A stretch of 64,000 nt of DNA from Gautieria morchelliformis (Eukaryota > Basidiomycota > Agaricomycetes > Gomphales > Gomphaceae), in NCBI GenBank assembly GCA_015179125.1, contig WHVA01000047.1, positions 298,835 to 362,834 on the forward strand, given 5' to 3'. Position 1 is the stretch's first letter; every line of letters starts with the position of its first letter. Below are positions 8,524 to 62,743 of the stretch, in pieces. The notes beneath the pieces were generated by a model. That model had not been told where the DNA came from, did no database searches, and saw nothing but the letters and a program-made list of their open reading frames with translations. A program made the position numbers and the translations under genes.

Positions 8524-9556
8524 GCTACCCCCTTGAACGGGGTATCCTCGGCTATGGGGAGGTCTATCTGCGGCATATAGTCGTGGTTCAGCTCAAAGGG
8601 CATGAACCCTGTGGTCGCGCTGACGTTGCTGTTGAGGGCGACCTCAACCATTGGGCATTTCAATGCCCAATCCTTCTGGCCGTATCTGACGACCGCGTGC
8701 AATATCTGACCGATCGAGCGGTTTGCCTGCTCGGTGGCTCCATCCGTTTGGGGATGGAAGGCAGTTGACATGAGGAGCTTAGTCCCCATGAGTCGCTGTA
8801 GTTCACGCCAGAAGATCGACGTGAACTTCGAGTCTCTATCCAAGACAATGGAGTCGAACGATCTCCTTCAGAAACAGCCAGGCTACTCCCTTGGCTGACA
8901 CGCTCGTCGTTGTTGGTACGAGGTGTACGAGTGACGTTAGTTGGTTGATGACTACCATCAGGTAGTCACAGTCATTGGATTTGGGCAGAGGCCCCATGAA
9001 GTCGATGCCAATCAACTGCCATGGCCTATCCGGAATGGGTAGGCTGTGTAGTAGGCCTTTGGGCCGTTGTGGCCCGGTCTTCGTCATCTGGCACTTTGCG
9101 CACACCCTGACGCACACCCGAGATTCGGGATCCGGGACGGGCTGATATGGACAAAAAACCAGCTCAAAAGAGACGTCATTGCCGCCCCCCGCTCTGTTCT
9201 TCAGGGGGGAAGGAGGCTGATCGAAATCATCATCGATCGGGCACATCAGATAGTCGGTCACTACGGCCATCTGAAGACTTCGAACTATGTTCGAAGATCA
9301 TATTGGTGGCCGGGCATGAGCCCAGACATAGAGTTGTTCTGCACATAGGGTGCGCCATGATCTTTGAGAACATGGCGTCCCTATGGTACGCGTCTCGTAA
9401 GACCTTAGACAGGTCTACACCTTGCTCGATGATCCGGCGCAGGGGCGCGCCGTCATTTCCTGCGGCGATGACTTTCACATCATCGTCATCGTCGTCGCGT
9501 GCTGCGGCGACGCTCGCGGGCTTTTGTGAGCCCTCATTTAATGCGGCGGATTCCAT
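8524..9556 (-). pseudogene. Gypsy A integrase, catalytic core
   Basis: The DDE core of the LTR-retrotransposon integrase is visible in two minus frames. The first aspartate is in WQLIGIDFMGPLPKS, the second in VLDRDSKFTSIFW, and the glutamate in HPQTDGATEQANRS. A small deletion near 8855 shifts the frame between KEIVRL and DSIVLDRD. The N-terminal zinc motif is split: its cysteines (CAKCQMTKTGPQ) are on the minus strand near 9085-9110, while the histidine half is on the plus strand (9119-9348). The upstream minus frame 9556-9350 holds the RNase H-integrase linker. Confidence 0.85.
9119..9348 (+). other. In-place inverted piece of gypsy A integrase (HH half of zinc domain)
   Basis: The plus strand reads GLIWTKNQLKRDVI..., then HAHQIVGHYGHLKTSNY and SYWWPGMSPDIELFCT. 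This is exactly the integrase segment missing from the minus-strand gene at this point. The remainder on the minus strand joins just before (…IMAHPM) and just after (CAKCQMTK). Both breakpoints carry short inverted similarity (GCGCACACCCTG on the left, GCGCACCCTATG on the complement at the right). Confidence 0.85.
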
Positions 9557-10127
9557 TATTCCCGCCTCTGTCTTCTCAGCGAGGCGTTTAGACCGTCTCG
9601 TCGCCGCTGTTCACAGTTAGATATACCGGTCGGTGGGCAATAACTCCCTGTCCGGGTCTAAACACGCATCTGCGTTTACGAAGATGTGGTCCGGGTGATT
9701 GTCATCACTCGTGTCGTTCTCGTAGTAGCGCGACAGGCAGTCTGCTACCTTGTTCTCTACACCGTCAACATGTACGGTGTTGAAGTTGAACCGGGAGAGA
9801 AACTCCCACCATCTGACCTGGCGGTCAGACAGGCTCTTCTGGGTCTCAAAGTACTCAAGCCCTTTGTGGTCTGTGACGAGGGTGAACCTTTGCCCCAGCA
9901 GTTTGTCCTCCCATTTTCATGAGAGCCTCGAGCACCGCAATCGTCTCGTGCTCATGAGTCCGGTAGTGTGTGGCATTGTGTGTGTAGAGATCCAGTGCAC
10001 CCTGAAACACGCTCTGCCGTGGCCCATGCGGCCGCCCTCTACGCTGTCCAAACTGTCCTCGACGACAACGGTGACCGCGATGAGGGCTACGGCCATGATT
10101 CTCAGCAATGGTAACTTCTGCGCACAT
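9557..10127 (-). pseudogene. Gypsy A RNase H region
   Basis: The minus strand encodes the C-terminal part of a gypsy RNase H and the connector to integrase: NATHYRTHEHETIAVLEAL, then (after a frame break near 9915) FTLVTDHKGLEYF and VRWWEFLSRFNF, then VENKVADCLSRYY. Two stops follow near 9610-9620, before a linker rich in aspartate. The polymerase domain should lie upstream but the homology ends near 10127. Confidence 0.8.
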
Positions 10128-11034: not shown

Positions 11035-11717
11035 TGTTACAACCGTTCATTTCCGACTTCCGACCCTCAGTTCCGCCACACCTTCCACCCCTCCGATATT
11101 TCCGCAACACATTCCGCCCCTCCGATATTTCCGACATTCCGCCCATTGTTCTATTCCCTTGTTCTTTCGACTCTATTACTCAGACCCACCGGACCCGTTT
11201 CATCATTCATCAAAACCACATATCCGGTCACCCTTGTAATTCGTTGTCAGATATGTTTTCCCAACCCCTTGTTCTTTGCCATTGTTCTACCTTACCCTGA
11301 ACCCCCCTTGTAGTCCCATTGTTCCCAATAGTTAGTTCCCACGCATTGTCTACTCGACTTCCGTTTCCCCCGGAATTTGCTTAGTACTATGTCATTACCT
11401 GTTGTCTCAGCTCTTTGTATAAAAGCCTGTCATGTATGTCTCTTATTCTGCAATCAGATAATCGCCTTCGATACTTGATTTCCTTCGCTCCATCTCCTGT
11501 TCTTAGCACAGCGAGTCTAGCAAGATCTCAGTCTCTCCGCCTTCCGCCTTCCGCCTCAGTTCTGACCCAAGTTCCGACCAAACCTTTGGTTCAGTACTTT
11601 CCGACTTCGGACTCAGTTCCAAAATACTTAGGACGATAGTTCATCGGGGGCGCAACCTATAAGTTGAAGCCGCTGTCCTTTCCAGTTCCGACTTAGTGGA
11701 AATCTCGATACGTAACA
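11035..11717 (+). mobile_element. Solo LTR, gypsy family B
   Basis: A 683-bp LTR from TGTTACAACC to CGTAACA with a perfect 5-bp duplication TTACA (11030-11034, 11718-11722). It is the complement of the LTRs of element B. It carries a TATA box ('tataaaag' near 11418) followed about 34 nt later by AATCAGATAAT, the predicted self-primer. It sits in an exon of the surrounding gene. Confidence 0.95.
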
Positions 11718-12173
11718 TTACACTCCAATGGACCATTTCAAGCCAGGCATTTCTCCAGCTGTAAGTTATTACTTAGTCCATTTCACTGTGCTGATATATT
11801 TGTAGTTCACTTATGGTATGAGCAATGAACACTCGAATAGCTCATCCAGAATCAGAAAACATCTTGGATCCAGAATCTTTGGATTCCCACCCGATCTCTT
11901 TGTCAAAGCTGACTGGTGACTTGCAAGCTGTCGTGTATTGGCTGGGTGGATGGAAAATTCTGACGGTACCTCGTTCTATACGCTGTTCGCCCCTATTCTT
12001 TATCAGGATGGCCAACATGATGTAAACCATGTTTTCCTCAATAAGGCGCTATTTGATGTATGTCTCTATTACATATTCTATAATTGGGGTTTTCTTATAT
12101 ATTTACACACAGGTTTTCAATGTTATAATTCGTGGTCCAAGTGCCCTTGACCATGAGCCTGGTGTTAGGAGTG

Positions 12174-12835
12174 TGTTACATATCGAGATTTCCGCTAAGT
12201 TGGAACTGGAAAGGACAGTGGCTTCAACTTGTAGGTTGCGCCCCCAATGAACTATCGTCCTAAGTATTTCGGAACTGAGTCGGAAGTCGGAAAGTACTGA
12301 ACCAAAGATTGGTCGGAACTTGAGTCGGAACGGAGGTGGAAGGCGGAAGACGGAAGGCGGAGAGAAACTGAGATCTTGCTAGACTCGCTGTGCTAAGAAC
12401 AGGAGATGGAGTGAAGGAAATCAAGTATCGAAGGCAATTATCTGATTGCAGAATAAGAGACATACATGACAGGCTTTTATACAAAGAGCTGAGGCAACAG
12501 GTAATGATATGGTACTAAGCAAATTCCGGGGGAAGCGGAAGTCGAGTAAACAATGCGTGGGAACTAACTATTGGGAACAATGGGACTACAAGGGGGGTTC
12601 AGGGTAAGGTAGAACAATGGCAAAGAACAAGGGGTCGGGAAAACATATCTGACAACGAAACACAAGGAGGACCGGACGTATGATCTTGATGAACAGTGAG
12701 GTGGGTCCGGTGGGTCCGAGTAATAGGGTCGAAAGAACAAGGGAAATATACAAGGGGCGGAATGTCAGAAATATTGGAGGGGCGGAAGGTGTTGTGGAAC
12801 TGATGGTCGGAAGTCGGGAATGAACGGTCGTAACA
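12174..12835 (-). repeat. 3' LTR of gypsy B (662 bp)
   Basis: Bounded by TGTTAC/GTAACA. It differs from the 5' LTR by 113 bp in length and about 15 substituted sites. The length gap equals six 14-bp units plus one 29-bp unit. Most substitutions are CpG to TpG or CpA, mainly in this copy. Confidence 0.93.
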
Positions 12836-12957
12836 GTATCTCCCTTCTAAGGTCGAGCCCCGCGAGACCACAAGTCGGAATCACGTGACTTGTGAACAAA
12901 TGCGTCGGAGTTCGAAAGATAGGCGGGAAACAAGACGTGTCTTCGTTTTGATCCATC

Positions 12958-14189
12958 ATGAGCACTCCAGTCGACTTCTCCAAAATGTCCAGTGCTGAGA
13001 TGAAGCAGCACTTTGCTGACATGCTTGCACAGAAGGAACTGGCCGAAAAGCGCGAGGCCGAGGAAGCCGCGCGGAAAGAGAGGGAGCGTCTGGAGGAGGA
13101 GCGCCAGGAGAAAGAGCACAAGGAACAGGAGCGTCGGGAGCAGGAGTGGAAAGAGAAGGAGGAGCGTGACCGTAAATGCCGTGAGGAGGAGTCGAAGCGG
13201 GACGCGGCCAAAAAAGCTGCGGAAGACAAAGCCGCGGCGGAGAAGGCGGGAAAATCCCGGGTTAGTCGGAAATGTCGTGTGGGGTGTTCCAGAGCTCATG
13301 GAAAAACTGCCAGAGGGTCGTAGAATCTGAGGGGGAGTCGGAAGCGGAAAGTCGTGCGGAAAGCACGCCGACTCCAGAGGGCAAGGGGAAGCAGAAAGAA
13401 GGTGCTCCCATGCCGAACATCGTTGCGGAGTGGAAATGGAGGGCGGACGAGTTCCAGCAGGCTCGGAAAGAGAAGATGGCCTGGATACTGGAGTTGCGAG
13501 AGCTGGGGCCAGAGAATCCCATGACCCAGAAAAGGAAAACCAGGGACGGCGAGGAGGAGAAGGCTCCTTGCGACATGTGCGAGGTCAAGGGCCTGGAGTG
13601 TGTGTGGTCGGAAAATCCGCGGGAGACGGCCTGCGAACGGTGCCGGGACAAGAAACGTTGTTGCGTGGTGGATGGGTGTGCCACGAGGGTGGAGCGGAAA
13701 AGGCGCAGGGTTGAGACCGAGGGGCCTGAAACCCCCAAGTCGAAACCGGGACCGAGCGGAAAGAAGCCGGAGGGATTTCCGGTGACCGGAAGCTCGGAGA
13801 CTGCGGTGCTCAACCGCTTCTCCATGGTGTCGCCGTTGTTCGACATCGCTAGGTCATTGAGGGGTATCCGGAGATCCCAGCGTGGGATCCGGAACACTCT
13901 TGAGGAGATGGCGGAAGTTCAACAACAACAGTTGTTGTCCTTCCAAAATCAAATGACCGTCATGTTGGCGGTCCTGGAGCAATTCCAATGGGAGTATAGA
14001 TGGTGGAATGACATGGTCCGGGAAAGGATGGACTTGCGGATGCAGGAGGAGAACGGGGCGGAAGCGGGTCCGAGTCAGGTGGCAGATACGAGGGTGGGGA
14101 CCGAGTTGGTCAGTGTGGAGATAGTGAATGCGGAAGAGGGTGCGGAAGTGGAGAACGAGAGTGAGGCAGAAATGATGAGGGAGGAGTGA
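12958..14189 (+). CDS. Antisense two-exon Cys-cluster/coiled-coil gene inside gypsy B
   Basis: It lies on the strand opposite gag-pol, between the chromodomain and the 3' LTR. Exon 1 is 12958-13260 and exon 2 is 13314-14189. The 53-nt intron (GTTAGT...GCCAG) joins them in phase to give about 392 residues. The N-terminus (MSTPVDFSKMSSAEMKQHF) is followed by a long Glu/Lys/Arg coiled coil. At about residues 185-222 is a cysteine cluster C-x2-C-x6-C-x10-C-x2-C-x5-CC (CDMCEVKGLEC, CERCRDKKRCC) followed by a basic patch VERKRRRVE. A second helical region (MAEVQQQQLLSFQNQM) and an acidic tail end the protein. This suggests a zinc-binding, possibly DNA- or RNA-binding accessory protein. The family is unknown to me, but the frame carries no stop while gag-pol is broken. 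Confidence 0.72.
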
Positions 14190-14321
14190 GCATCGTGGTG
14201 ACTTGTAAAATATTTCTTGAAGTGTTGGAAATTTAGCGTAGCGGAATATTAATCGGATTTGACCAATGACTTGAGAACTTGTAAGAAAACAATGGGGTAT
14301 CGGAAATGAGGTCGGAAATGA

Positions 14322-15521
14322 CTAAGGCGCGGAAATGGGGCCAGGCTTATCAGGATAAGACTTGTGGAAATCAGAGACGAGGTCAGAGGCGTGGTCTAGT
14401 TCCGTGGCGGAAATCCACGAGGTCTCTTCGTCGGTGTTTTCATAGCCTGCCCACTTGACTAGGTACTGGAGTTGGCAGCGGTATCATCTGTCTAGCTTGG
14501 AGTTGAGAATTTCCGAGATCTCATATTCCGGTTCTCCGTCGATGATGACTGGCGGAGGCGGAGGTTGTTCTCGATTCGGAATTGTATTCGGAACTGCGGG
14601 CTCAAGCATGGAGACATGGAATACCGGGTGTACTGCACGCATATTGTCAGGAAGTCTGAGGGTGAAAGAACGACTGCCGGCCTTAGCGATGATCTCGTAA
14701 GGACAAAGGTATTTCTCAGAGAGCTTCTTCAAGGGGTGAGTGGTGCAGAAGTTTTCAGCTTTGACAAAGACTTTGTCGCCTATCTCGAATGCCGGTTGCG
14801 GAAGTCGTTTCCGATCGGCGGAAGTTTGGTATCTCTTTTGTGCAGCAGAAATGTTCTCTCGGAGGTGCTGGTGAAGGTCGTCGAGTTCCACAACAAAATC
14901 TCGGGCTCTTGCAGAGGCGAGGTCGCGTTCAGGGTGGATGGTGAGATTCGGGTGGTAGCCCTTATTGGCGTAAAAGGGTGAAATTCCGGTGGTAGCGGAA
15001 GGCGCATTGTTGTAGGCAAACTCCGCGAGCGGAAGGAGGTCGGACCAATTGCTGTGTTGATAGTTGCAATAGATGCGGAGATACTGCTCAAGGGTCTGAT
15101 TAGTACGTTCCGTTTGTCTGTCTCCTTCGGGGTGATAACCGGAAGTGAAGTGGAGCTTCATGTCGAGAGCCTTGCCGAGTGTGCGGAAAAAGGATGACAC
15201 GAATTCTGATCCACGGTCGGAAGTGACATGGGAAGGGATTCCGTGCTTGGAAAAGACGTGGAGCACGAAGAGCTGTGCGAGCTGGGCGGAAGTGATGGTG
15301 TTGTAGGTCGGAATAAAGATGGACTGCTTTGTGAGGTGGTCAACGATCACTAGAATGGTATCATAGCCAGATGACTTAGGAAGTTTCTCAATGAAATCCA
15401 TGGATATCGAATTCCACGGTTGTTCCGGGATCGGAAGTTGCTTCAGGAGGCCGTAGGGTTTGTGACATTGAGGCTTGGCTCGCATACAGGTGGTGTATGA
15501 CTTGCAGTAGTCTTGGACCAT
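14322..15521 (-). pseudogene. Gypsy B integrase core and chromodomain
   Basis: The frame begins at the second half of the integrase zinc motif (CKSYTTCMRAKPQ). It has the DDE core (WNSISMDFIEKLP, VTSDRGSEFVS, HPEGDRQTERTNQ), the GPY-like region (LCPYEIIAKAGSRSFTLRLP) and the HPVFHVSMLEP connector. A stop at 14484-14486 (TGA, expected CGA after LDR) interrupts a chromodomain that continues as LQYLVKWAGYENTDEETSW and ends at 14322. The histidine half of the zinc domain is missing between this frame and the RNase H frame, apparently by deletion. Confidence 0.9.
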
Positions 15522-16660
15522 CCAGGACTGGTAGGGTCATCGAGGTGGGCTGCGGAGATGGGGTCCGAACGAAGTGCGGAACGGATGTCGGAATGGAGAG
15601 ACTCGGTGTCCATAATGATTGAGGCGCGGAGTAGCAGAAACTGCAATGCTGTGGCACACAGGGACAATGCCAGTTGCTCAGTAGAGAATACTGGGTGGAA
15701 ATTGTGCGGATTAACGCTGGCATAGTCGCTACTTCCCTCTTTTGGGTAGACGTCCCAACGTCTAGTGAGTGCGTCAGGTTTTGCTCCAAGCTTTCCAGGG
15801 CGGAAGCGGATCACCATGTTGAACTGTGAGAGATATTCAGACCAGTGGACTTGACGGCGAGTCAATATCTTAGTCATTGCAAAATACTCAAGGTTCTTAT
15901 GATCCATTACAACGTCGATCGGATAAGTTGGACCTTCGAGGTAGTGTCTCCAGATTTTGAAGGCTTCGAAAATCGCAAGTAGTTCCTTATCGTGGACGTC
16001 GTAGTTGAGTTCCAGGGCAGAAAAGGTGCGGGAATGAAAGGCGATCGGATGAATTTCTCCATCGTCAGGGGAAATGATGGAAAGAATGGCGGCTAGCGCG
16101 TAGTAGGAAGCGTTGGTTTCGAGTACAAGTTGGGCATCAGGAATCCAGAAACCGAGTATAGGAGCCGTAGTGAAGGCCGATTTGAGGGCTTCAAATGCGG
16201 AACGGCATTCCGGAGTGAAATTCCATGGGGCACCCTTCCTGGTGAGACGCGTGAGCGGAACAGTAATGTCGGAAAAATTATAAATGAAACGCCGGTAAAA
16301 GTTGGCGAAACCAAGGAAAGACTGCACATCCTTAACACGTTGGGGTTCCAGCCATTCTTGAATTGCCTTGACTTTGTCCTCTGCCATGGTAAGACCTGTT
16401 GGAGAGAGGATGTAGCCGAGGTATTCGACCGTGTCGGGATGCCATTCGCATTTCTCTGCTTTTGCGTAGAGATGATGTTTGCGTAGACGGTGGAGTACTT
16501 CGCGGACATGTTCCCGATGTTTTTCCGGTGTGTCGGAATAGATGAGGATGTCGTCAATGTAGACTAGGACGCATACGTCGAGAAGGTCGGAAAATACGTC
16601 GTTCATGAATCGCTGAAAAGCGGCCAGAGCATTGGTTAGACCGAAAGGCATGACAACCAC
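15443..16660 (-). pseudogene. Gypsy B reverse transcriptase (palm, thumb) and RNase H
   Basis: The frame starts inside RT at [16 protein letters not shown] and contains the catalytic motif VYIDDILIYSD and the LGYILSPTGL and FLGFANFYRRFI motifs. RNase H follows, with ETNASYYALAAIL (expected DASDYA, so the first catalytic Asp is altered), FHSRTFSALELNYDVHDKELLAI and VVMDHKNLEYF. It joins the upstream RT frame by a 1-nt deletion near 16660 (EWL|VMPFG). Confidence 0.92.
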
Positions 16661-17853
16661 TCAAAAGCACCGTAGCGGGTGCGGAAAGTGGTTTTCCACT
16701 CGTCACCTTCCCGGATGCGGACAAGGTGATAAGCGTGCCGGAGGTCAATTTTGGTGTAGATCTTCGCCCTGCGGGGAGTGTCGAGTAGGTCGGAAATGCG
16801 CGGAAGCGGATATTTGTCCTTCTTAGTGAGGGCATTGAGTCCACGGAAATCAACGCAGAGGCGGAGAGATCCATCCTTCTTCTTGACGAAAAGGACCAGA
16901 GCGCCGTGCGGAGACAGCGAAGGGCGGATAAAGCCCATGTTGAGATGTTCATCGACAAACTCTCGGAGAGTCTGGAGTTCGCTTTGCGAAAGGGAGTAGA
17001 TCGGTCCAAGGGGCAGAGATGCTCCTTCTTCCAAATCTATCTTCAGATCGTAAGGTCGATGTTCCGCAGGTTTGTCGGCTTTGGCCTTATTGAACACGTC
17101 CGGGTAGTCACGATATTCTTCCGGAACTGAGCTCATGTCGACCGGAGCGGAAGTCGAGGCGGAACAAGCCTTGACTGAAGCCGAGTCGGAAAGGTGAAGC
17201 TGGAAAACGGTTGTGTCTTCTTGCCGTTGCAATACTCGGAAAGCGGTGGCGGAGACGAGCGCAATTCGAGGAGCTTCGAGGGGCGGAGGTGCTAAAGCGG
17301 GACCGGAGTGTGGAACTGAATCCACAAGCGGAGTTGCAGAAGAGGCCTGAGCCATCTTTGCGGACGACGTCGGAATAGACGGAAGTTGATCCGGGGTACG
17401 GAACTTTATTTGACCCAATGCCCAGTTAATCGACGGAGTATATCAGGTGAGCCAATTGTGTCCTAGTACAACGGAACAGCTAGCATCTAGCGGAGTAACG
17501 TAAAACGTAACTTCATGGTTGTCCTCAGTAGCGAAACGGATAGACAGATCCACCACTTAGGAAATTGCCGTGTTGGAAGATCCATCGAAAAGGTGGAGTG
17601 GAATAGTCGGAATGTTGCGGGTCAGAAGTTTATGTTTCAAAACAAAGTCGGAATTGAGGAAACAGTGAGTCGAACCGGAGTCGACCAGTGCTGTGAACGG
17701 GGGTGCAGAAATGGTGTCGGAAGAGAGCGGAATGGAAAGGGAGTCGGAGGACGAAAGAGCGGATGCGTTGAGTTTAACCTCATTTGTTGCACGAATGGGG
17801 TCAACACAGCCCTCAGCTCGTGCGGAGGCCAGAGGACTGCTGACTATTTTTTT
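16636..17853 (-). pseudogene. Gypsy B protease and RT fingers
   Basis: Immediately after the gag slippery site the -1 frame stays open into a retropepsin (ALVDSGSTHCFLNSDF, active-site DSG). Two stops follow: a TAA after NTAIS near 17555, and TGA at 17443-17445 where WLTRY is expected. The RT N-terminus follows ([23 protein letters not shown] in parts; [51 protein letters not shown]). It ends at WLSCLSV through the 1-nt deletion. Confidence 0.9.
17844..17853 (-). promoter_or_regulatory. Predicted -1 ribosomal frameshift site, gag-pol of gypsy B
   Basis: The last gag codons read GCA AAA AAA TAG, an A_AAA_AAA slippery heptamer (17847-17853) abutting the stop. Slipping by -1 enters a frame with no stop that leads directly into the protease. 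An imperfect hairpin can be drawn right after it (GTCAGCA...TGTTGAC outer arms, CCTC/GAGG inner). Confidence 0.65.
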
Positions 17854-19222
17854 GCATCCATAGCGGGAGCCGCTTCGTATTTCTCTTCCGTCTTCGCCGC
17901 ATGGCCCTTGGCCTTAGCAGCGGAAGCGGAAGCTCGGGTGCAATCGCAAGCGATGTGTCCGCCTTTGCCGCAGAAAAGGCAAAGGTTGTTGTCCATGCGA
18001 CGCTGGCGTTCTGCGGGGGTTAGTTTTCCGTCCTTCCAAGTTTGTCGGAAAGGTCCGGAGTACCCTTCCGGGCGTTGGTGTTGGAACCAGAGGCCTGGTT
18101 GTTGCGAGGGGTGTTGTTGTTGTTCCGGGTGCCGGAGTTGGATCCGGAACTGTTGTTGCTGTTGTTGTTTCCGGAGTTGTTGTTTCCGGAATTGGTCTTC
18201 TTCTTGTCTTTATCAGACTTCTTGTCGGAAGACTTGTCGTTCTTGCTCTGGGCGGAAGTTTCGCGAGCAATCTCGGAGTGTCTTTCCCAGTAGCGCGAAT
18301 CGATGGATTGGGCGAGGTTGCGGAGGTCGGTAAGGGTGGCGGGTTTTCCGACGCGGGCAATTTCATCCTTGATCCGGGATGGCAAGCCCATGTAAAACTG
18401 ACGTCGGAGTGCGGCTTCTCCCCATTGGACTCGAGGAGAGAGCTGCTGAAATGTGACGATATATTTAGCTATCTTATGAGTGTCTTTCATACGAAGCTTA
18501 TTGAGTTCATTTTCCGCATCGGCTTCCATGTCAAATGGTCCGAAGTTGCTGCGGAGTTCGGAGACGAAGTTGTGGTAATCGTCGGCCCAGTCGACGAGAG
18601 CGGACGGGTCCATGAGGGGGGGTTCGAAGTAGTCGAGAGCCGTGCCTCGGAGATAGGAAAGGGCATAATTGACCTTTCGTTCGTCGTCGGGAAAGGCGTC
18701 GGGATGATCACGGAAATTGAGTTGAAGCTGGACCAGAAATGGCTGGAGCTTCTTGGGGTTGGAACCGTCGAACTGATCTGGTTCGCGGACCTTTGTCTTG
18801 GGGCGTGGTGGTGCTTGGGCCGGGCACTGAAGTTGTCTGGCTAGCATGGCGATGGCTTGTGCAAGATCCGGAACTGGCGCGGGCGGAACTGGGTTGGCGG
18901 GGATCTGAGGTGGGATTGGCGGTGGAGGACCGCCTGGTGGGCCGCCATGAGGGCCGCCTGGAGGTGGTCCTGGTGGAGGTGGTGGTGGTGGAGCTGGGCG
19001 TCGGAATGACGTCGAATTCCCGTCATAGTCGGGATTGTCGTCGGGATTAGCATCGGGAACTTCTTCGAAACGTTGCGGAAAGGCATCGGAGAGCTCATCG
19101 TCAGCACGAGAGCTGCCGGAGGGTTCCGCATGCCTTGGTGCTGCGGATCTGAGACTGCCAAAATAAGAGAGAGCTTCGACAGCTCCTGCTCGAGCTGAAG
19201 TAGCTGTGGTACGAGGAGGCAT
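17844..19222 (-). pseudogene. Gypsy B Gag with CCHC zinc knuckle
   Basis: ATG at 19222 (MPPRTTATSARAG). The protein has a Pro/Gly-rich region, then the retrotransposon gag domain (FDGSNPKKLQPFLVQLQLNF, ALSYLRGTALDYFEP, FGPFDMEADAENELNKLRM, YMGLPSRIKDEIARVG) and an Asn/Ser-rich linker. A 1-nt deletion near 18020 (GGAAGG for expected GGAAAGG) shifts the frame. Restoring it by eye continues into LTPAERQRRMDNN and the knuckle C-x2-C-x4-H-x4-C (CLFCGKGGHIACDC), and ends at TAG 17844-17846, directly after a run of seven A. Confidence 0.9.
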
Positions 19223-19242
19223 AGTGATAGTTATCGGGTAGG

Positions 19243-19253
19243 AATCAGATAAT
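19243..19253 (-). promoter_or_regulatory. Self-primer binding site of gypsy B
   Basis: Two nt after the 5' LTR the minus strand reads ATTATCTGATT. It is perfectly complementary over 11 nt to AATCAGATAAT at 19613-19603 in the LTR. That site lies about 34 nt after the TATA box (19647-19641), i.e. at the predicted RNA 5' end. No tRNA-type TGG primer site is present at this position. Confidence 0.75.
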
Positions 19254-19255
19254 AC

Positions 19256-20030
19256 TGTTACGTATCGAGATTTCCGCTAAGTCGGAACTGGAAAGGACAG
19301 CGGCTTCAACTTGTAGGTTGCGCCCCCAATGAACTATCGTCCTAAGTATTTCGGAACTGAGTCGGAAGTCGGAAAGTACTGAACCAAAGGTTGGTCGGAA
19401 CTTGAGTCGGAACGGAGGCGGAAGGCGGAAGACGGAAGGCGGAAGACGGAAGGCGGAAGACGGAAGGCGGAAGACGGAAGGCGGAAGACGGAAGGCGGAA
19501 GACGGAAGGCGGAAGACGGAAGGCGGAGAGAAACTGAGATCTTGCTAGACTCGCTGTGCTAAGAACAGGAGATGGAGCGAAGGAAATCAAGTATCGAAGG
19601 TGATTATCTGATTGCAGAATAAGAGACATACATGACAGGTTTTTATACAAAGAGCTGAGGCAACAGGTAATGATATGGTACTAAGCAAATTCCGGGGGAA
19701 GCGGAAGTCGAGTAAACAATGCGTGGGAACTAACTATTGGGAACAATGGGACTACAAGGGGGGTTCAGGGTAAGGTAGAACAATGGCAAAGAACAAGGGG
19801 TCGGGAAAACATATCTGACAACGAAACACAAGGAGGACCGGACGTATGATCTTGATGAACGGTGAGGTGGGTCCGGTGGGTCCGAGTAATAGGGTCAAAA
19901 GAACAAGGGAAATGTACAAGGGGCGGAATGTCGGAAATATCGGAGGGGCGGAAAGTGTTGCGGAAATATCGGAGGGGCGGAAGGTGTTGCGGAACTGATG
20001 GTCGGAAGTCGGGAATGAATGGTCGTAACA
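19256..20030 (-). repeat. 5' LTR of gypsy B (775 bp)
   Basis: Bounded by TGTTAC/GTAACA, with TATA box TATAAAA at 19647-19641 (minus). It contains seven copies of a 14-bp unit GACGGAAGGCGGAA (19431-19528) and a 29-bp tandem duplication near 19940-19990; the 3' LTR has one copy of each. Confidence 0.95.
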
Positions 20031-20567
20031 GAGTGGGACTATGACAATGGATGTGATATGGGAGCTTACAGAGGTTACTCCTGGTGCCATAGCTGCTGCT
20101 GCTACATTTGTAAGCTATAACGCACCTCTACGATTATTGTTTTCTTTACTGATACCCCTGTGATTAATCAGGCATGATTTGCATTGAGTCACGATGGTGC
20201 ATTTCAACACCAAGGTGCTGCAACGAAAATCGACTACGAAGGAGACTTCAACATTTACCTCCGCTACCTCATCTCTGGTCGTGAAGAGAATAAGCGGTCA
20301 GTCAAGCAGATTCTTAGAATTTGGAACGATTATTTCTTTCCGGCTACATCAAATTTCGACACCATTGTAGCAGCACCTGTACAGGCAGTCAACGATGCCT
20401 TCGCAATGCTTGAGGAAGATGAGGAGGTTGGACCCATCGATCAGCACGATATTCTTTCTCCCAATCACCTGCCAACTCATGATAATGCTGCAATTCCTGC
20501 TGACCCACCAACAACCTCTATACCCTCCGACACATATCCTACCAGAAAACAGCGAGCGCCTATATGA

Positions 20568-40753: not shown

Positions 40754-41210
40754 CTAGTCTTGCGGCACAATGTCTTTATACTTTTCAAAACGTCTGGTGT
40801 CCTGAATGAAGCGTAGAGTCGCGGCTATTGTCTTCGGGTCCCCCAGCAGCTGGGGGATGGAGTGGGCAGCTTTGCCTGCCTTACGTCTGAGCTGCTCGCG
40901 CTGGGCTGCATATCTGTGGCAGTGCTTGAGATAGTGCACCACTGTCTCGGGCTGACGGCAGCACTTGCAGAGGGCAGTGTCAACTGCCTTGATCTTCTTG
41001 AGGAAGTGGTTGAGGGACACGTGTCCGGTGCGCAACTGGACAATGATGCTTGTGGCATGGCGCGGCAGGGAGCTGAGCATGTTGTAAGTTCTCCAGTTGG
41101 GCAGCGTCTTGTCAACTCTAGACATTTTCTGGAAGCGGGGTGACTCGGACCATATCTTACGCCAACGCTGGATGATGGAGCCCTTATGACCTGCTTTGAG
41201 GGCTGCGATG
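40754..41210 (-). pseudogene. LINE ORF2, C-terminal region with zinc motif
   Basis: The frame reads QPSIAALKAGHKGSIIQRW, ESPRFQKMSRVDKTLPNWR, LRTGHVSLNHFLKKI and the C-terminal zinc motif CKCCRQPETVVHYLKHCHRY, ending KYKDIVPQD at 40754. This is the tail after RNase H in Tad/I-type LINEs. It starts abruptly at the junction with gypsy C sequence. Confidence 0.85.
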
Positions 41211-42763
41211 CTTGGCTGGGCATCGACTCATCAGTACCTTCCGAGTCTGCCAATTGATCTCTGGGTTGTGCTCCTGAAGCCAGGTAAATCTGAGGATGAG
41301 GTCTTGCTTCCCCAGGCTGGTGACTGCAAAGGAAGTACGTTCTGAGTGTCCATCGTAGCGGAGAATTGTGTCTACTATCTCTGTGATGAACCCTGCCTCA
41401 TTGGGGCTTCCATCCACATTGAACACCAGGATTGCATGTTGCAACTTCCGCGTGGTCAGTCAGTTCCATTCCACATAGTCCTGGTCCATAAACTGACCAG
41501 TGGCACCGCAATCAACAAGGGCGGGTCCGGATTTGACTTCCGCTGTATCTGTCGTCTGGATCTCCACCTTAATGACTAGTGACTTGGGGTCAGGGGTGGC
41601 AGCAACAACATAGCGCTTCGGTGTGAGCTGCTCATTTTTCGGACAGAACTGGTCGGAAAATGTTTTCTCGAAGGCGTCCCAGTCCCGAAAGTAGTTCCCC
41701 TTGCCCTTTGCTTCATGTCAGATCACCTTGTTTACAAAATGGGCTGCGTGATACGACTTGAAAAAAGACAATGCCCAGTGAATCCAAGCCTGGTCGTTCG
41801 GAAAGAGGTCTCCGACAATTACGAAGTAGATGCTGCATGTGTTGAAGAATGCACGTCCCTTCTCCCGATCACCATCAAAGTCCGCCGGAGTTGCGGGTTT
41901 GACCTTCCTCTCTTCCGCCAGTTCCGCTTTTCCGAAATCCGGCTCATCCAGCATTGCATTTCCACCACCTTGTGGAATATCTAACTTAGCCAAAATCGTT
42001 TGTAAGGCTGTTTCAATCGCGTCGGTCTTCATCTGGTTCCGCGTCAATTCCTCCTCCATATTCCGAAGGCGATCATCCGGATCCATGTCAGAAGGGGAAA
42101 TATGGGACGGGATTTCCAGGGTTGGGAGCTCAACGTAAGAAGAGGGGCTGTCGTATACCGTGTGCGCGGAAGAGGATGCGATCTCCGAGTCACTGTCTCC
42201 GATTCCGAACGCACCTATGGCGAATGCAACGCGCAGTATGACCGCCGGTCCTCTAGGGGAGAGACTTTTCTGCTGTAAGGGCAACCCTGGCTGGTTGTAG
42301 AGATCACACTACCACACAACTGACAAGGGGAAATCCAAAGTATGTATAAATGAACAGAGTATACAAGAGAGGGGATTCTCACCTGACAAGGGGAAATCCA
42401 AAGAGAAAAGTCTAAGGACCCCCAATGTCAGCGAGCCCATCTTATACTATGCTGCGCAGCCAGGGACAACACTTGGTGCCCACCATCAACCCTGCATCCT
42501 CCTGACCTCCCTGACCCATGATCGACCCTTGATGCCACCTATTACGCGAGTCGCTTGATTTCCAACACTGTTCCGAGAGTGGAAGTCGGAAATTGGAGTG
42601 GAACTGGCAAGGCGAACAGAACTGGTGGAAGTTCTCCCAGAAGCGGAATCATTTCCGAAAGCGGAGGCGGAGATGGAATCGGAACTGGAAGCGGAGTCGG
42701 AAATGGAGTCGGAACTGGGTGTGGTGTCGGAACTGGATATGGAAAACAGGGTGTCCCCTGACA
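41205..42763 (-). mobile_element. Gypsy C fragment (5' LTR, gag N-half, protease) inside the LINE
   Basis: A 490-bp LTR (42274-42763) is followed by gag N-terminus from 42284. A ~900-bp internal deletion joins gag (...KNEQLT) to the protease region (PKRYVVA..., ALVDCGATGQF). It ends at 'atgcccagccaag' near 41205, where LINE sequence resumes; an 8-bp microhomology (cagccaag) lies at that join. Compared with 60891-64000, CGA codons at 41718-41720 and 41460-41462 have become TGA. Confidence 0.9.
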
Positions 42764-43637
42764 GATCCAGCTGGTCCACCATTGTTGGGGTTGTTTCGTC
42801 AGGAAGGCCACGCTGTTGAAGTTCCTCCAGGAGCCTCTCCTTGAACGTTTTCCAGTCAACGTTGCGGAAGTTGCGGCCCGGGATGGTGTGGCATCTGTCA
42901 ATCGCAAGATCCAGAGTGGTGTGGATTGGGAGGTGGTCAGCTGATGGGATGCGATCGTCATGGGAGGTGGTGCATGAAAGAAGCCTGTGAGTGAGGTCGG
43001 CGTCACAGAAGACAAGATCAATGGTTGTCCAGGTACGGTGGCTGTCAGACTGGTATGTAGGTGTGCCTGGCGGCAACTGCAGTTCCATGTGTTGTTCCGC
43101 TAGCAGTTGCATTAGCAGCTCCGTGTTGCTGAGTCTGCAGCGCCGCGCATAGTTGGGTCCAGTCCAGAGTGGGTTGTGCTTGTTAAAGTCACCGGCCCAC
43201 AGTGCAGAGGACTCAGCGGGTGTTCGGTTGTTGGTAAGCCACTGGTGTAGGTGTACGAGTGCCTTGTCGGAGTCTGGGGGGTTGTAGATGTTGTAGATGT
43301 CTAAGTTGGTGTCGTTGTATGTAATGGAGAGTGCCGTTATCTGGTGTGAAACAATTTGAATCTGTCGGAAGGAGCTAGACGTCAGTTGCGTGGAAATAAG
43401 TGTTATAGAGCGAGGCAAATTATCGTTGTCGTTTTCGTCTTGCACCGGATACATTATATACCAGTGCAAAGTAGCCGGCGATAATCTTGTTCTCGGATAG
43501 ATGTAGGGTTCTTGGATTAGGAGTAGGTCCCAGTCCTTGGGGTCTGTGGTGTTGATTAGGGATAGGGTGACGTCTTTCGAGTGTTTGCAGTTTTGCTGCT
43601 TAATTCGTAAGTTCTTGATTTGGGTGGGTTCAGGCAT
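42764..43637 (-). pseudogene. LINE ORF2 N-terminus: APE-type endonuclease
   Basis: Start ATG 43637 (MPEPTQIKNLRIKQQNCKHS). Endonuclease motifs in order are QQN, LLLIQEPYIYP, SALWAGDFNKHNPLW, TTIDLVFCD and ADHLPIHTTLDL (SDHxPI motif with Ala for Ser). The enzyme nicks target DNA to prime reverse transcription. The frame enters the gypsy LTR after MVDQLDL at 42764. Its start codon overlaps the ORF1 stop (ATGCCTGA). Confidence 0.92.
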
Positions 43638-45126
43638 CTGGACCCGTGGGGGAGGTGGCAGGGATGTAATTGATCAGAGGCTGGGACTGGCTGAGAGGCG
43701 GGGGGGGAGTGCGGGGTTGGGCAGTGGAGCGGCGCCCTGGAATGTAATCTACATCTGCGAAAGCAAAGGGCGTATAAGCTTGGTATCTTCCAGTCGCGTA
43801 CTCATCTTTCATGGTTTGAGCTTCGATGGCGGCTTTCGCAGCCGGGCATGTGCGTGTCCAACTGGGGTGGTCGCCTTGGCAGTTGGCACACTTGGGTTTT
43901 TCGGCAGCGCAGTTCTGACCTGTGGGGCAGGGGTGTTCATGTGCGCAAGAGTGGTCGTTAGTGGAGTGAGGCCCGGAGCAGCGGCCGCAGCGTGCCTCCC
44001 CGGTGCACCCCGTCGCCCGGTGGCCCCAGTCCTGGCACCGGAAGCACTGTGGGGGTCGCTGGACATAAATGCTAACGCTGCATAGAGTACCTTCAAAGAT
44101 TAGACCATTCTCTATGGCTGCATTGGCGGCTGCTTTGGTTCTGTAGCTAATCAGTAGTGGGCCGCGACTGGTTCGGTCACGGGATTCGTTGCTGCTGAGC
44201 CACGCAAGGTTGGCCACCTGACGCCCGTCAGGCACATTGTCCGAGTTGCTACCCTCGAGGCTGTCGATGGCATCCTTCAGATCCTCCATCTCCAACCAGA
44301 AATTGGTGGGGACATTGTGCGCCACCACCACGTATGAGCGTTGAGGTGTGGTAGCAGCGGGGTCAATTTCTTTGACCCATTTGTCCACGTGCGCGCGAGC
44401 CTTGTTCGCATCTTCGACCATTTTGAAGGTAAGCGTAATATTACCGGCCATAGACTTGGTGATGCCACGTATCGGAAGGGGCGACGGCGGCGAAGCCTCC
44501 GGGTGTCGTTCAAAGTAGTTAGCAATGATTCCGCAACAATACCTTGTGGCCACCGCCGGCTCCCATTTAAGGATGTGAGCATCTTTCGCAATGTTTTTCA
44601 TGGAAAGGAAAATCTGCTTTTGTTGTAGTTCAGCCGCCATCTTCTGTTTGTGCACCGTGGCTTGATTCGAGGTTCCTCCAAGGCCACGCTTTGCGGCAGC
44701 GGCATAGGAGGCCTCACCCAGGGCCAGGCGGGGCTGCACATGACCGGCAGCTACAGTTTCCTTGATGTCGGAGACCGCCTTTTGCAGATCGTTGTTCGTC
44801 GCCATCCTGTTGTCGCCATACAGGAGGGAGGCCTCCCGTAGTAGCTTGGTGATGGCAATTAGCTGAGCAGCGCCATCTTTGCCCAGATTCCATGACGTTC
44901 CGCGCTTGAAATCTCCAAAAGACTCCAGGGCGGCAGCAAGAGCTGAAATGTTAGTCTTATTATCTTCATTAATACCTCTATTGTTCAGTATGGCGACAGG
45001 GTCGCCAGGGTCTGGAATCGGCGTGGGTGAACGGGCGATCCTGCTTTGGGGGATGGATTGGTTGGGCGCTAGCGTCCCTATTCCCTGCGTCTGTAGGATG
45101 CCGGGAGGATTGGGGTTGGCTGGCAT
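43630..45126 (-). CDS. LINE ORF1, RNA-binding protein with CCHC knuckles
   Basis: An intact 498-residue frame (MPANPNPPGILQTQ...). The middle part (about residues 195-330) has the alternating strand-helix pattern of the ORF1 esterase/RRM-like region (ITLTFKMVEDANKARAHVDK; GPLLISYRTKAAANAAIENG). Three zinc knuckles follow: CFRCQDWGHRATGC, CGRCSGPHSTNDHSC and CANCQGDHPSWTRTC. The C-terminus is Pro-rich. The protein coats LINE RNA. It is the only intact retroelement protein found here apart from the antisense gene. Confidence 0.92.
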   Translation of the reverse strand: MPANPNPPGILQTQGIGTLAPNQSIPQSRIARSPTPIPDPGDPVAILNNRGINEDNKTNISALAAALESFGDFKRGTSWNLGKDGAAQLIAITKLLREASLLYGDNRMATNNDLQKAVSDIKETVAAGHVQPRLALGEASYAAAAKRGLGGTSNQATVHKQKMAAELQQKQIFLSMKNIAKDAHILKWEPAVATRYCCGIIANYFERHPEASPPSPLPIRGITKSMAGNITLTFKMVEDANKARAHVDKWVKEIDPAATTPQRSYVVVAHNVPTNFWLEMEDLKDAIDSLEGSNSDNVPDGRQVANLAWLSSNESRDRTSRGPLLISYRTKAAANAAIENGLIFEGTLCSVSIYVQRPPQCFRCQDWGHRATGCTGEARCGRCSGPHSTNDHSCAHEHPCPTGQNCAAEKPKCANCQGDHPSWTRTCPAAKAAIEAQTMKDEYATGRYQAYTPFAFADVDYIPGRRSTAQPRTPPPPLSQSQPLINYIPATSPTGPDA

Positions 45127-58936: not shown

Positions 58937-60890
58937 AGCTGCGTCTGTCAGCATTCGGCATCAGCCACATGACTAAGTTAACGAGGAAACAGTGGTCATC
59001 AGTGGAAAGGATCTCCTAAAGCTTTCACTTTTGGAGCAGTGTAGAGTATCAAGTAATAGTAGTAAAAGTGTTGCAAGCTAAGTCATACAGTGATAAAATA
59101 GCATATATGCAGGCACTTGGCAAGGAGTTCACTGTCTCTGTGCCGGTCTCCTGAGGCAGCCAATTGGTATGTTCATCCAGGGAGCTATTATCAGGATTCC
59201 CAGATAGAGTCTGAAGAAATCATTATCCCTGGTGGTCTTGTAGGATCATGGATAACGCAGCGGTTGGTTATGGAGTTGCTCATAGGGCTCCACACCGTGC
59301 CGTACAACCACGGCTGTATGGTGCCATATTATGGCCATGGCACCTGTATCGTCAAGGGTCTGTGTGTGCTGCCGACGGTATGGTATATGGTATGCAATGG
59401 GAAAACCCCAAAAACCTTGTAGCCGAGCCCAAAAATACATCCGCTGATGGGCGCTACTGCTGGTAGGCAGGCCAGATTTATGTGGCGCTCATGCTCCCAT
59501 TCACCCCCTGCTGACATTCCGCCACGCGTGCACACACCGTAGCGAGCAGCTGGGTGTGATATTATCAATATAGTTTTGCTGCCGGTCACATGCAGTAAGG
59601 AATTCTCATAACTGCTCTAAGTTTAGGCCAAGCTATAATAGATCAGCCATATGAATCCGTCAACCATAATACGGATGGTACCGTACCTGTACCGTACATA
59701 CCGTCAGAGGGGTAAGGTGTTGATCTATGGACAGTATACAGTCTGCCGTATCTGTCAACTTGCTGTACATTATATGGCCGTAGCTGTAATACGGACGGTG
59801 TGCAGCCCTAGTTGCTCATGGCCTTCATCTTTGCAAATTCACATGATCCCTCTTTGACAAAATCATTGAAGCCTCCGGCAAGCATGACTTTGGCTTTACT
59901 GCTAAGTATGCAATGTCAAGGGATTGCAGAGCCATTACACTGAATATATTTCAATGATATGTGCACCAGACTTCAAACCCAACATTGTGTTCTGCATGAC
60001 GGGTGCCTAAATTATGTTCCTATGCAATCCCTTTGCCTGACAGGTGCTTATATAAATGGCTGGAACCAAGTACATGCAAGTGAAACAGGCCCATGCGCAG
60101 CCTCCCCTCCGCAGTGTTGACTATCACTGAGGAGGTGAGTTTATTAGTGTATCTTCGTAAAATAGGTAGCTTTCCCTTATATTACTAGTGTTGATTATAG
60201 AACACTAAATAGTCTCCTGAAGGTTCCATCCATTGAACTACTGGTCTATAATATTCCACTGTGTCCATACCGAGTTACTACATGAATATGCTGAATCTAT
60301 CCATATATACAAGAACATACCAAGCACCAATGGGAATCTTGATAGGACCTGCAGGCCACAGCAGAAGCATATTACCTCGCTACAGTATTGATAAAGCTGT
60401 CCCATAAGCATCAGTATGCATTGATCAAAGGCTAGCATAAGAGCACAGATGTCTCCTGTAGTATACCCTTCTGTACTTCAAGCTCCTCCCTACAATATTT
60501 GAACATGGTGGCAATGCTAGCCATTCCTCTCATACCACCAATACTGGACACAACTTCAGAGGGATGAACATATTTGTACAGCTTATATGGGTCAGTGATC
60601 CTGGACATAATCAGTACATATTACATGTATGGGTGGTTTCTGCCTTTTTTGGATGAACATGTCGTGTTGTCTTCCTTGTGTCAGGTGATTTGTGTACCAC
60701 AGCATGCGGTGTTGGCATATTTTCTGCTTTTGTCAACAGTCTTACTGCCACACCTTCATCACCTCATGTGGGTGGCTTTACCATGTGGCTGCTCCTCATG
60801 GTGGCATACTTAGCCATACCAGCAGCACCTAGGTGCATTACCAGCAATGCAGACACCTCAGCTCTGGTCTGGGGGGCTGGAGGCTATGTG
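58937..60890. other. Gene-free stretch before gypsy C
   Basis: About 2 kb. Scattered 'ccgtac/gtacgg' inverted motifs occur at 59290-59380 and 59680-59800. Open frames are short and unrecognisable. The last part, next to the LTR, shows a plus frame (VGIFSAFVNSLTATPSSPHV) with no family I know. Confidence 0.35.
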
Positions 60891-61380
60891 TGTCAGGGGA
60901 CACCCTGTTTGCCATTTCCATTTCCGACTCCACACCCAGTTCCGACTCCATTTCCGACTCCGCTTCCGGTTCCGATTCCATCTCCGCCTCCGCTTTCGGA
61001 AATGATTCCGCTTCTGGGAGAACTTCCCCCAGTTCTGTTCGCCTTGCCAGTTCCACTCCAATTTCCGACTTCCACTCTCGGAACAGTGTCGGAAATCAAG
61101 CGACTCACGTAATAGGTGGCATCAAGGGTCGATCAAGGGTCAGGGAGGTCAGGGGGATGCAGGGTTGATGGCAGGTGCCAAGTGTTGTCCCTGGCTGCGC
61201 AGCATAGTATAATACGGGCTCGCTGACATTGGGGGTCCTTAGACTTTTCTCTTTGGATTTCCCCTTGTCAGGTGAGAATCCCCCCTCTTGTATACTCTGT
61301 TCATTTATACATACTTTGGATTTCCCCTTGTCAGTTGTGTGGTAGTGTGATCTCCACAACCAGCCAGGGTTGCCCTTACA
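60891..61380 (+). repeat. 5' LTR of gypsy C
   Basis: TGTCAGGGG...CCCTTACA, 490 bp. The TATA-like box TATAATAC (61208) lies 33 nt before AGACTTTTCT (61241-61250), the predicted RNA start and self-primer. Confidence 0.94.
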
Positions 61381-62743
61381 GCAGAAAAGTCTCTCCCCTA
61401 GAGGACCGGCGGCCGTACTGCACGTTGCATTCGCCATAGGTGCGTTCGGAATCGGAGACAGCGACTTGGAGATCGCAACCTCTTCCGCACACACAGTGTA
61501 CGACAGCCCCTCTTCTTACGTTGAGCTCCCAACCCTGGAAATCCCGTCCCATATTTCTCCTTCCGACATGGATCCGGACGATCGTCTTCGGAATATGGAG
61601 GAGGAATTGATGCGGAACCGGATGAAGACCGACGCGATTGAAACAGCCTTACAAGCGATTTTGGCTAAGTTAGATATTCCACAAAGTGGTGGAAATGAAA
61701 TGCTGGATGATCCGGATTTCGGAAAAGCGGAAGTAGTGGAAGAGAGGATCTCCGCGAAGTTAGCAAAGGTCAAACCCGCAACGCTGGCGGACTTTGATGG
61801 AGATTGGGAGAAGGGACGCGCATTCTTCAACACATGCAGCATGTACTTTGCAATTGTCGGAGACCTCTTTCCGAACGACCAGGCTCGGATTCACTGGGCA
61901 TTGTCATTTTTCAAGTCAGACTGCGCAGCCCGTTTTGCAAACAAGGTGATCCGACATGAAGCAAAGGGCAAGGGGAACTACTTCCGGGACTGGGACGCCT
62001 TCGAGAAAACATTTTCCGACCAGTTCTGCCCGAAAAACGAGCAGCTCACAGCCCTTACAAAGCTCGAGGGGACCAGCTGGTACCAGGCCAAGGATCCGGT
62101 CGATGACTACATCGATCGCTTCCAGGAGCTCATCGACCTTGCGGAGTATGACGATGACAAGACGATCGTCATCAAATTCTGACGAGGACTTGATCCGACA
62201 CTCCAGAACCAAGTCGCGCTGCTTGGGGATGGAGCTCCAGATTTTGATGACCCGGAAGGGTGGTACCAAGCTGCGCAGAGGGTGTCCCGGAGCAGGGAAG
62301 CAAATGAGGCCTTCGTGGAGACAAGCCGGAACATGACACGCAGTTCCACTCGTCCTACTCCACCTGTGCCAAAACCCAGAAGCACATTCATTCCCACACG
62401 GAAAATATTTCCGATGCTTGCTCCGCCTGCTCCTATTAGGAACCATAGCCCTCCTCCCTCGAAGAGTGGCCCTGCCCCGATGGATGTTGACCGCATGCGA
62501 GGAACAGGCCGCGGAACTATCACCTGCTTCCGATGTCGACAACCAGGCCACTATGCTCGTGAGTGCCCCCAAGCCTTTGATATCCGGCTTATGACCACAG
62601 AGGAGAAACTCGAGCTCCTTCCAGAGTTCCTCGCACTTGCGGACATAAGCGGAGTGCCCACTGCAGAAGAGGTTTCCGAAAATGCGGAACATGGTCCACC
62701 GGTAGCGGAGGATGCATCGGATTTTGTGATGCGCAGCGGGTGA
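61370..62743 (+). pseudogene. Gypsy C Gag with zinc knuckle
   Basis: The frame begins near the LTR end; the first ATG that follows the LTR in frame is within MDPDDRLRNMEEELM. The gag core reads TLADFDGDWEKGRAFFNTC, PNDQARIHWALSFFKSDCA, FEKTFSDQFCPKNEQLTAL and KDPVDDYIDRFQELIDLAEY. TGA at 62180-62182 replaces the Arg of KF-R-RGLDPT. The same frame continues to the knuckle CFRCRQPGHYARECP and stops at 62743, where pol starts in the -1 frame. Confidence 0.9.
61383..61392 (+). promoter_or_regulatory. Self-primer binding site of gypsy C
   Basis: AGAAAAGTCT, 2 nt after the LTR, is the exact 10-nt complement of AGACTTTTCT at 61241-61250 in the LTR. The same arrangement is present in the fragment at 42273. 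Confidence 0.7.

Follow-up and report, generated by a model that had tools for sequence, protein, structure and literature searches.

In the ectomycorrhizal basidiomycete Gautieria morchelliformis (Gomphales), a large family of chromodomain Ty3/gypsy retrotransposons carries an apparently spliced gene inside its LTR-bounded elements, on the strand opposite gag and pol. This accessory gene is under purifying selection, and different whole-gene alleles, extending approximately from the ATG to the stop codon of pol, are found in nearly identical element backbones. The gene thus behaves as an exchangeable cassette. As the best explanation of the whole, to which we give a probability of roughly one half, the exchangeable antisense gene would encode an accessory nuclear DNA-binding regulator, possibly with an anti-silencing function similar to that of VANC.

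Structure of Element B and Its Antisense Gene

The gene was analyzed starting from one copy in a window, by which we mean the whole stretch of 64,000 nucleotides taken from contig WHVA01000047.1. The window contains element B, a minus-strand chromodomain Ty3/gypsy element of 7.86 kb, which is bounded by LTRs and has the target-site duplication (TSD) GAGTG at either end. With its LTRs, the 5-bp TSD, gag, the order RT-RNase H-integrase and a chromodomain at the end of pol (PF00385, 30.7 bits), it has the features of a Ty3/gypsy chromovirus. Its parts are located in the window as follows.

12169-12173 (no strand): TSD GAGTG on the 3' side of element B, read from the sequence
12174-12835 (minus): 3' LTR (TG...CA), rich in CGGAA, from the sequence and a motif count
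12836-12848 (minus): purine-rich tract adjoining the 3' LTR, from the sequence
12836-12957 (plus): conserved leader from the LTR to the ATG, with low divergence in 12836-12919
12958-13260 (plus): exon 1 of the antisense gene, 101 codons, with a charged N-terminus
12964-14319 (no strand): variable cassette in window coordinates, from breakpoint fits on other loci
13261-13313 (plus): 53-nt intron, GT..AG (so in 38 of 39 copies; length 51-57 nt)
13314-14189 (plus): exon 2, with a Zn2Cys6-spaced cluster, a basic stretch and a long helix, ending in TGA
14190-14321 (no strand): spacer between the convergent stop codons, within the variable cassette
14322-15536 (minus): 3' part of pol, with integrase, SH3 (Tf2-1-like) and chromodomain; one in-frame stop in the window copy
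15443-17442 (minus): RT and RNase H pieces of pol, with broken frames
18020-19276 (minus): gag (Retrotrans_gag / Ty3 capsid)
19256-20030 (minus): 5' LTR, with 29 CGGAA seen against 2.8 expected
20031-20035 (no strand): TSD GAGTG on the 5' side of element B, read from the sequence

The antisense gene starts with an ATG at 12958, 122 bp from the 3' LTR. The donor GTTAGT follows 13260, the acceptor CAG ends at 13313, and the stop codon ends at 14189, giving a product of 101 + 291 = 392 aa. The gene is convergent with gag-pol and does not overlap it, the stop codon of pol being at 14322-14324. A sequence-only reading of the window had placed a two-exon gene opposite gag-pol in the gap between the chromodomain and the 3' LTR, and both its coordinates and its length of 392 aa proved to be right. 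The same reading proposed that an antisense intron is hidden from the genomic RNA. Indeed, the ends of the intron read CT..AC on the sense strand, not GT..AG, and the intron is kept in all 39 aligned copies; it can survive retrotransposition because the sense (genomic) RNA offers no GT..AG there. The further statement that the sense genes are broken applies to the window copy and not to the family, since 25 of 150 scored pol loci (the best 150 of 4613 candidates) are open over at least 1,200 aa, and the family therefore has copies with long open pol frames.

Judging from its sequence, the purine-rich tract at 12836-12848 is likely to be the PPT. The leader at 12836-12957 presumably holds the antisense promoter or the 5' UTR, and its segment 12836-12919 differs by only 0.01-0.08 in 25 listed pairs whose genes are 0.22-0.26 apart. 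A near-palindrome around CACGTG (ACAAGTC...GACTTGT) is readable in this leader and may serve the antisense gene as a promoter element.

Other mobile sequences are found in the neighborhood. An inverted solo-LTR-like copy of the element B family, with pieces ~91-94% identical, lies beside element B at window 11035-11720, the relic of a third gypsy pol, a more distant one, at 8559-9913 on the minus strand, and a Helitron helicase-like N-terminal domain at 1473-2273, also on the minus strand.

Copies of the Gene and Their Intron

When the 122-Mb genome of G. morchelliformis was searched with the exon-2 protein, at least 134 matches with 71-100% identity were obtained (134 of 721 candidates scored), and a divergent allele as the query gave at least 136 matches with 68-100% identity (136 of 717 scored). 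In a DNA search with the antisense gene, 40 of 484 candidates were scored and all 40 matched. Thirty-nine of these, namely the window copy and 38 others, were aligned, and the partial copy C429 was left out. The ATG is kept in all 39 copies. The intron has GT..AG in 38 of them, the acceptor being lost in L013, and the donor/acceptor pair GTGAGT/CAG is found in 37, to which the window copy with GTTAGT/CAG is an exception. The length of exon 1 is a multiple of three in 36 copies. The intron is 53 nt long in 15 copies, 51 in 11, 54 in six, 52 in three, 57 in three and 55 in one, and its length is a multiple of three in 20 of the 39. Among 12 more divergent loci, a GT..AG gene model was obtained by script in 11 and by eye in the twelfth, L052, which has a TAG acceptor. 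Exon 1 itself shows changes of 15 or 21 nt between alleles (L017, L019, L020, L023, L027, and others).

At least 10 of the 39 copies are fully open, a lower bound because the sequences of L036, L038, L042, L045, and L046 end before the stop codon of exon 2. Six of these ten would be thrown out of frame if the intron were retained. In the other four, the intron is in frame and open and can be read unspliced, so that splicing is not obligatory for every allele. Exon 1 has a nucleotide diversity of 0.075/0.078/0.174 at codon positions 1/2/3 and exon 2 one of 0.077/0.067/0.164, position 3 thus being about twice as diverse as positions 1 and 2, and the intron shows no position-3-like rise. CpG decay was ruled out as the cause of this codon bias, which persists at non-CpG sites, and a chance ORF was ruled out by the 39 aligned copies.

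Purifying Selection and Linkage to pol

Over 136 pairs of 17 intact CDSs, the median dN/dS by NG86 is 0.19 (0.18 for exon 1 and 0.19 for exon 2), a figure that, as those below, is rough given the NG86 method and decay after insertion. The 17 CDSs come from 10 of the 39 aligned copies and seven of the 12 divergent loci; L047, L048, L051, L052, and L056, which gave no clean model, were left out. Without demanding intact frames, and with pairs of dS <= 0.05 or >= 3 left out, dN/dS is 0.19 for exon 2 (404 pairs, 29 loci), 0.30 for exon 1 (118 pairs, 16 loci), 0.14 for the 3' part of pol (325 pairs, 26 loci), 0.31 for RT (105 pairs, 15 loci) and 0.26 for gag (45 pairs, 10 loci). As these values are similar, the accessory gene is constrained about as well as gag-pol. 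Nor does the protein, taken over its full length, show diversifying selection, given the low dN/dS.

The gene is opposite pol in all 33 loci tested, consisting of the window, 20 related loci and the 12 loci chosen for divergence. On a wider scale, 72 of the 134 exon-2 loci face a scored pol within 1.5 kb (69 of the 72 at 200-449 bp), and none of the 134 has a scored pol on the same strand; conversely, 72 of the 150 scored pol loci adjoin a scored gene, with 134 of 721 genes and the best 150 of 4613 pol candidates scored. No unlinked host homologue was seen, 62 of the 134 exon-2 loci being unpaired with a pol from that best 150. LTR pairs were found around the window copy and 12 of the 20 related loci, and contig ends truncate three of the remaining eight (L012, L019, and L022). 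The expectation that homologues lie antisense in other gypsy copies was therefore confirmed, the proposed dN/dS comparison turned out favorably at about 0.19, and together they support the idea of a retroelement with an intron-containing accessory gene.

Exchange of the Gene as a Cassette

Divergence along the element is uneven. In an alignment of 17 loci, the 12 divergent ones differ by 0.04-0.11 in the LTR (the first bin, which includes flank, left out), 0.06 in bin 12820-12919, 0.14-0.26 in the gene, 0.21 in the stop-to-stop spacer, 0.05-0.08 at the end of pol and 0.12-0.16 in the integrase region. The 33 loci form 528 pairs, in 81 of which the backbone, taken as the mean of LTR+spacer and pol end, is less than 5% apart. 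Exon 2 is more than 15% apart in 28 of these 81 pairs and less than 5% in 12, where 28/81 is not a genome-wide rate because the 12 divergent loci were picked for divergence. For example, L052 and L056 differ by 0.018 in LTR+spacer and 0.023 in pol against 0.240 in exon 2, 0.385 in the intron and 0.358 in the 3' spacer, and L056 and L058 by 0.047, 0.013 and 0.248 in LTR+spacer, pol and exon 2, respectively. Two-breakpoint fits on three pairs gave 12964-14319, 12964-14309, and 12962-14320, that is, edges near the ATG and the pol stop, with divergence of ~0.24 inside and 0.025-0.029 outside. At 4-fold sites, L052 and L056 differ in 48/85 positions of exon 2, 6/29 of exon 1 and 5/118 of pol, and in some loci with LTR and pol just 1-5% apart and alleles 24% apart, 4-fold divergence is 0.53-0.57 in exon 2 versus 0.03-0.05 in pol. 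Since adjacent segments of one element have such different ages, recombination among elements is needed. The size changes of exon 1, together with its lower 4-fold divergence than exon 2, hint at further exchange inside the cassette.

The trees built from the gene, from pol and from the LTR are mutually rejected (32 loci, with L019 left out; p-AU 0.0007 or less), and the conflict between the pol and LTR trees means that recombination is general. In 71 paired loci, genes with 71% identity to the window and genes with 93% go with the same pol identity of 93-96% (correlation -0.26), a range narrowed by the pol list being the best 150 of 4613. Within the window's own class (L009-L028), dS is 0.19 for exon 2 and 0.17 for pol, so that gene and pol are about equally divergent there and the cassette effect appears between classes. 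Two trivial causes were ruled out, namely an assembly chimera, as several contigs carry alleles of the same class, and in-situ hypermutation of the gene, by the sharp edges and the tree conflict. The exchange probably relies on template switching among RNAs packaged together or on gene conversion among copies. Either route would keep homogenizing the LTR and pol, with old alleles surviving in between. That the old alleles persist through frequency-dependent selection is a guess, drift being the alternative.

A Short Motif Spread Through the Element

The pentamer CGGAA, counted on both strands, occurs 137 times in the 7,857 bp of element B versus 130 times in the remaining 54,900 bp of the window. 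Compared with dinucleotide shuffles, the 3' LTR has 11 against 1.5 and the 5' LTR 29 against 2.8, values reached by none of 2000 shuffles. The excess extends to coding sequences when synonymous codons are shuffled. The antisense gene has 15 CGGAA against 4.9 (0/2000), the pol pieces have 14, 8, and 12 TTCCG against 3.6, 2.7, and 5.0 (0, 1, and 0/2000), and gag has 10 against 3.6 (2/2000). All 17 intact alleles of the antisense gene exceed their synonymous shuffles (z 2.8 to 6.1), and divergent alleles, compared in 58 pairs, have 40% of their CGGAA sites in common versus 6-24% for seven control pentamers. In the LTR and the 3' spacer, nearly all motifs read TTCCG on the sense strand, and in pol the ratio is about two to one.

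The motif is also enriched 4-6 times in two other stretches of the window, a LINE-like endonuclease region at 41000-44000 (23 vs. 5.5) and a second gypsy element at 60000-64000 (44 vs. 7.1), and it is below expectation at 0-8, 20.1-41, and 44-60 kb. Two of five control ORFs are enriched as well, and both come from these two stretches (7 and 4 of 500 shuffles). The motif may therefore serve several retroelements, either through the antisense protein or through a host factor.

The CpG bases of the motif decay like other CpGs (0.178 vs. 0.173 in the LTR and 0.184 vs. 0.193 in pol). Conservation of the GAA part is twice that of other bases in both the LTR (0.035 vs. 0.070) and the cassette (0.061 vs. 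0.148), but in pol the motif has no such advantage (0.076 vs. 0.081). Across copies L009-L028 and L047-L058, CpG variability in the LTR and pol is 0.17-0.19 versus 0.07-0.08 at non-CpG sites, about 2.4 times higher, a pattern that would fit CpG methylation of the family.

The Encoded Protein

Exon 1 encodes a highly charged stretch that is probably a coiled coil. In exon 2, seven cysteines are invariant in all nine aligned alleles, and six of them are spaced C-x2-C-x6-C-x10-C-x2-C-x6-C, which we take to be the canonical spacing for Zn2Cys6. Of the Cys cluster originally described from the window, the extra cysteine (C-x5-CC) is not common to the alleles. The cluster is followed by a basic stretch, by its pattern presumably a nuclear signal, and then by a long helix. 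AlphaFold, given an alignment of nine sequences, places the helix at 162-249 of exon 2, with confidence over about 171-240, and its model is poor around the Cys cluster (block pLDDT 43-59).

The Zn2Cys6 profile PF00172 matches all nine exon-2 alleles weakly (best E 0.00092), and every allele scores below the Pfam cut-off, the best at 19.7 versus 21 bits; for this reason the protein is not filed as Zn2Cys6. When five alleles were aligned singly, the first half of the cluster fell on profile positions 7-35 in four (7-34 in one of them) and the second half on positions 1-13 in the fifth. By these alignments, the Zn2Cys6-like halves appear to be in permuted order relative to PF00172.

Neither TRP28 (PF04195) nor bZIP was matched in Pfam scans of the product. 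Protein searches, which rely on shared 5-residue words, found no relative at E 0.01 or better in a set of 5.8 billion proteins for residues 130-345 (237 candidates) and none at E 0.01 for the nine-allele exon-2 alignment (6945 candidates), and among solved structures there was no match at E 10. A search with the whole protein, in which 8000 candidates were scored, returned coiled-coil noise and a single Gautieria gene model, whose match at the start of exon 1 covers 7% of the query. This model, P0003 (C763:29442-31593), opens with exon 1 and continues with other sequence containing PF20414, and is likely to be a gene-caller chimera. It aligns to contig C763 in five pieces, two of them at 100% identity and three at 78-92%.

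Comparison with Known Systems

Plant LTR retrotransposons are known to carry antisense genes. The aORF-3R group (Grande gene23, RIRE2, and Retand TRP28) consists of antisense ORFs between pol and the 3' LTR, which, in the accessible parts of two papers, are described as present in most or all copies of certain families and are suspected to encode a nuclear or DNA-binding protein (PMC7264820, PMC11963269). One of these papers invites its readers to watch for spliced and antisense transcripts (PMC7264820), and the word intron is absent from the main texts of both. The Gautieria gene has the same place and strand relative to gag-pol; however, it resides in a fungal chromodomain element, has a conserved intron, undergoes exchange of hyper-divergent alleles and lacks a TRP28 match.

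HBZ of HTLV-1 is spliced, uses a promoter in the 3' LTR and encodes a bZIP protein. By contrast, the Gautieria protein is zinc-cluster-like without a bZIP match, no infectious virus is involved, and the ATG is located outside the LTR. In the part of the source available, HBZ is likewise presented as an antisense regulatory gene of a retroelement (PMC11963269).

A different parallel is VANC. The host element in Gautieria is an LTR retrotransposon, whereas VANDAL is a DNA transposon. VANC is encoded by Arabidopsis VANDAL elements, and its short motif is dense and mostly in one orientation in its own element, mainly in non-coding DNA, according to the accessible text of PMC5735166. The likeness lies in the combination of an element-encoded protein and an element-wide short motif, with binding in Gautieria being a guess and the Gautieria motifs being located in coding DNA too. 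CGG half-sites are the usual target of fungal Zn2Cys6 transcription factors. The Gautieria protein shares the six-Cys spacing with this class (PF00172) but differs in the reversed order in which its halves match the profile and in its score.

Among fungi, a figure legend marks an "add. ORF" of unknown function in Gypsy elements (PMC2864245), and thus an extra ORF as such has a precedent in fungal Ty3/gypsy elements. In searches of the open-licence literature, neither titles nor abstract beginnings mentioned a spliced antisense gene or an exchange of cassettes for gypsy elements of fungi.

Possible Roles of the Antisense Gene

If the gene encodes a nuclear regulator as we favor, an antisense promoter beside the 3' LTR would drive it and the transcript would be spliced. 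The protein would then enter the nucleus, where its zinc cluster would bind CGGAA spread through the element, and the bound protein would relieve CpG methylation or other silencing, as VANC does for VANDALs. Allele diversity would be kept as new alleles escape host or self-directed repression. In this specific form, a nuclear coiled-coil Zn2Cys6-like factor that recognizes CGGAA and keeps the element expressed against silencing, the proposal is tentative and somewhat short of an even chance; it counts against CGGAA binding and anti-silencing that the motif may belong to a host factor. Weighing on the same side are the sub-threshold PF00172 scores and the poor model around the cluster, the decay of motif CpGs at the common rate, the ordinary conservation of GAA in pol and, unlike VANC targets, the motifs in coding regions; the lack of a diversifying signal in dN/dS and the equal divergence of gene and pol within the window's own class also speak against the reading as a whole. 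It is doubtful whether one may go further and suppose modular self-recognition, in which a permuted zinc-cluster protein would read an element-wide CGGAA code and the cassette alleles would be under negative frequency-dependent selection that maintains many old ones in a population of elements otherwise made uniform.

A regulator need not act on silencing. Like HBZ or Tat, the protein may tune its own LTR for copy-number control or superinfection immunity, and diversity would be kept because new alleles escape the repression by resident alleles. The position of the gene next to the 3' LTR, its intron, the long helix, the basic region and the retention of old alleles all suit this reading, and precedents are found in retroviruses and plants, as far as the accessible parts of PMC7264820 and PMC11963269 go. 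However, divergence of the cassette is not accompanied by divergence of the LTR (0.018 in LTR+spacer versus 0.24 in exon 2 for L052/L056), so that an operator matching each allele would have to lie inside the cassette, and we consider this reading rather unlikely. Alternatively, the nucleotide sequence itself may be what matters. Convergent transcription would produce dsRNA over the cassette only, small RNAs would target this segment, and divergent cassettes would escape from such homology-dependent silencing, with nucleotide divergence as the driver and the protein secondary. Divergence does extend over exons, intron and 3' spacer without distinction and ends close to the pol stop, and the 4-fold sites of exon 2 are highly divergent; yet a dN/dS of 0.19 shows that the protein matters, and this explanation is unlikely.

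The two remaining explanations are at odds with more of the data. Sharp cassette edges and old alleles would be expected if one element lineage had repeatedly captured diverse members of a host gene family. Such capture is nevertheless quite improbable, as divergent alleles share their exon structure and the place of the intron, all 33 loci tested lie beside pol, and the shared-word search of 5.8 billion proteins gave no host homologue at E 0.01. Still less credible is a functionless passenger, an old polymorphic segment that was spared by chance while the LTR and pol were homogenized. The share of fully open copies, at least 10 of 39, is what decaying insertions would give, but the codon-position bias that holds at non-CpG sites too, the conserved splice sites, the dN/dS of ~0.19 and open frames across alleles 24% apart all speak against it.

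To the antisense genes already known from plant LTR retrotransposons, the Gautieria family adds an intron kept through retrotransposition, a signal of selection, a candidate motif and allele swaps. These swaps constitute a natural experiment in which the same LTR and pol are combined with a different accessory gene, and they make the role of antisense retrotransposon genes directly testable. Through this system, VANC anti-silencing or the antisense regulators of retroviruses may turn out to have a counterpart in retrotransposons.
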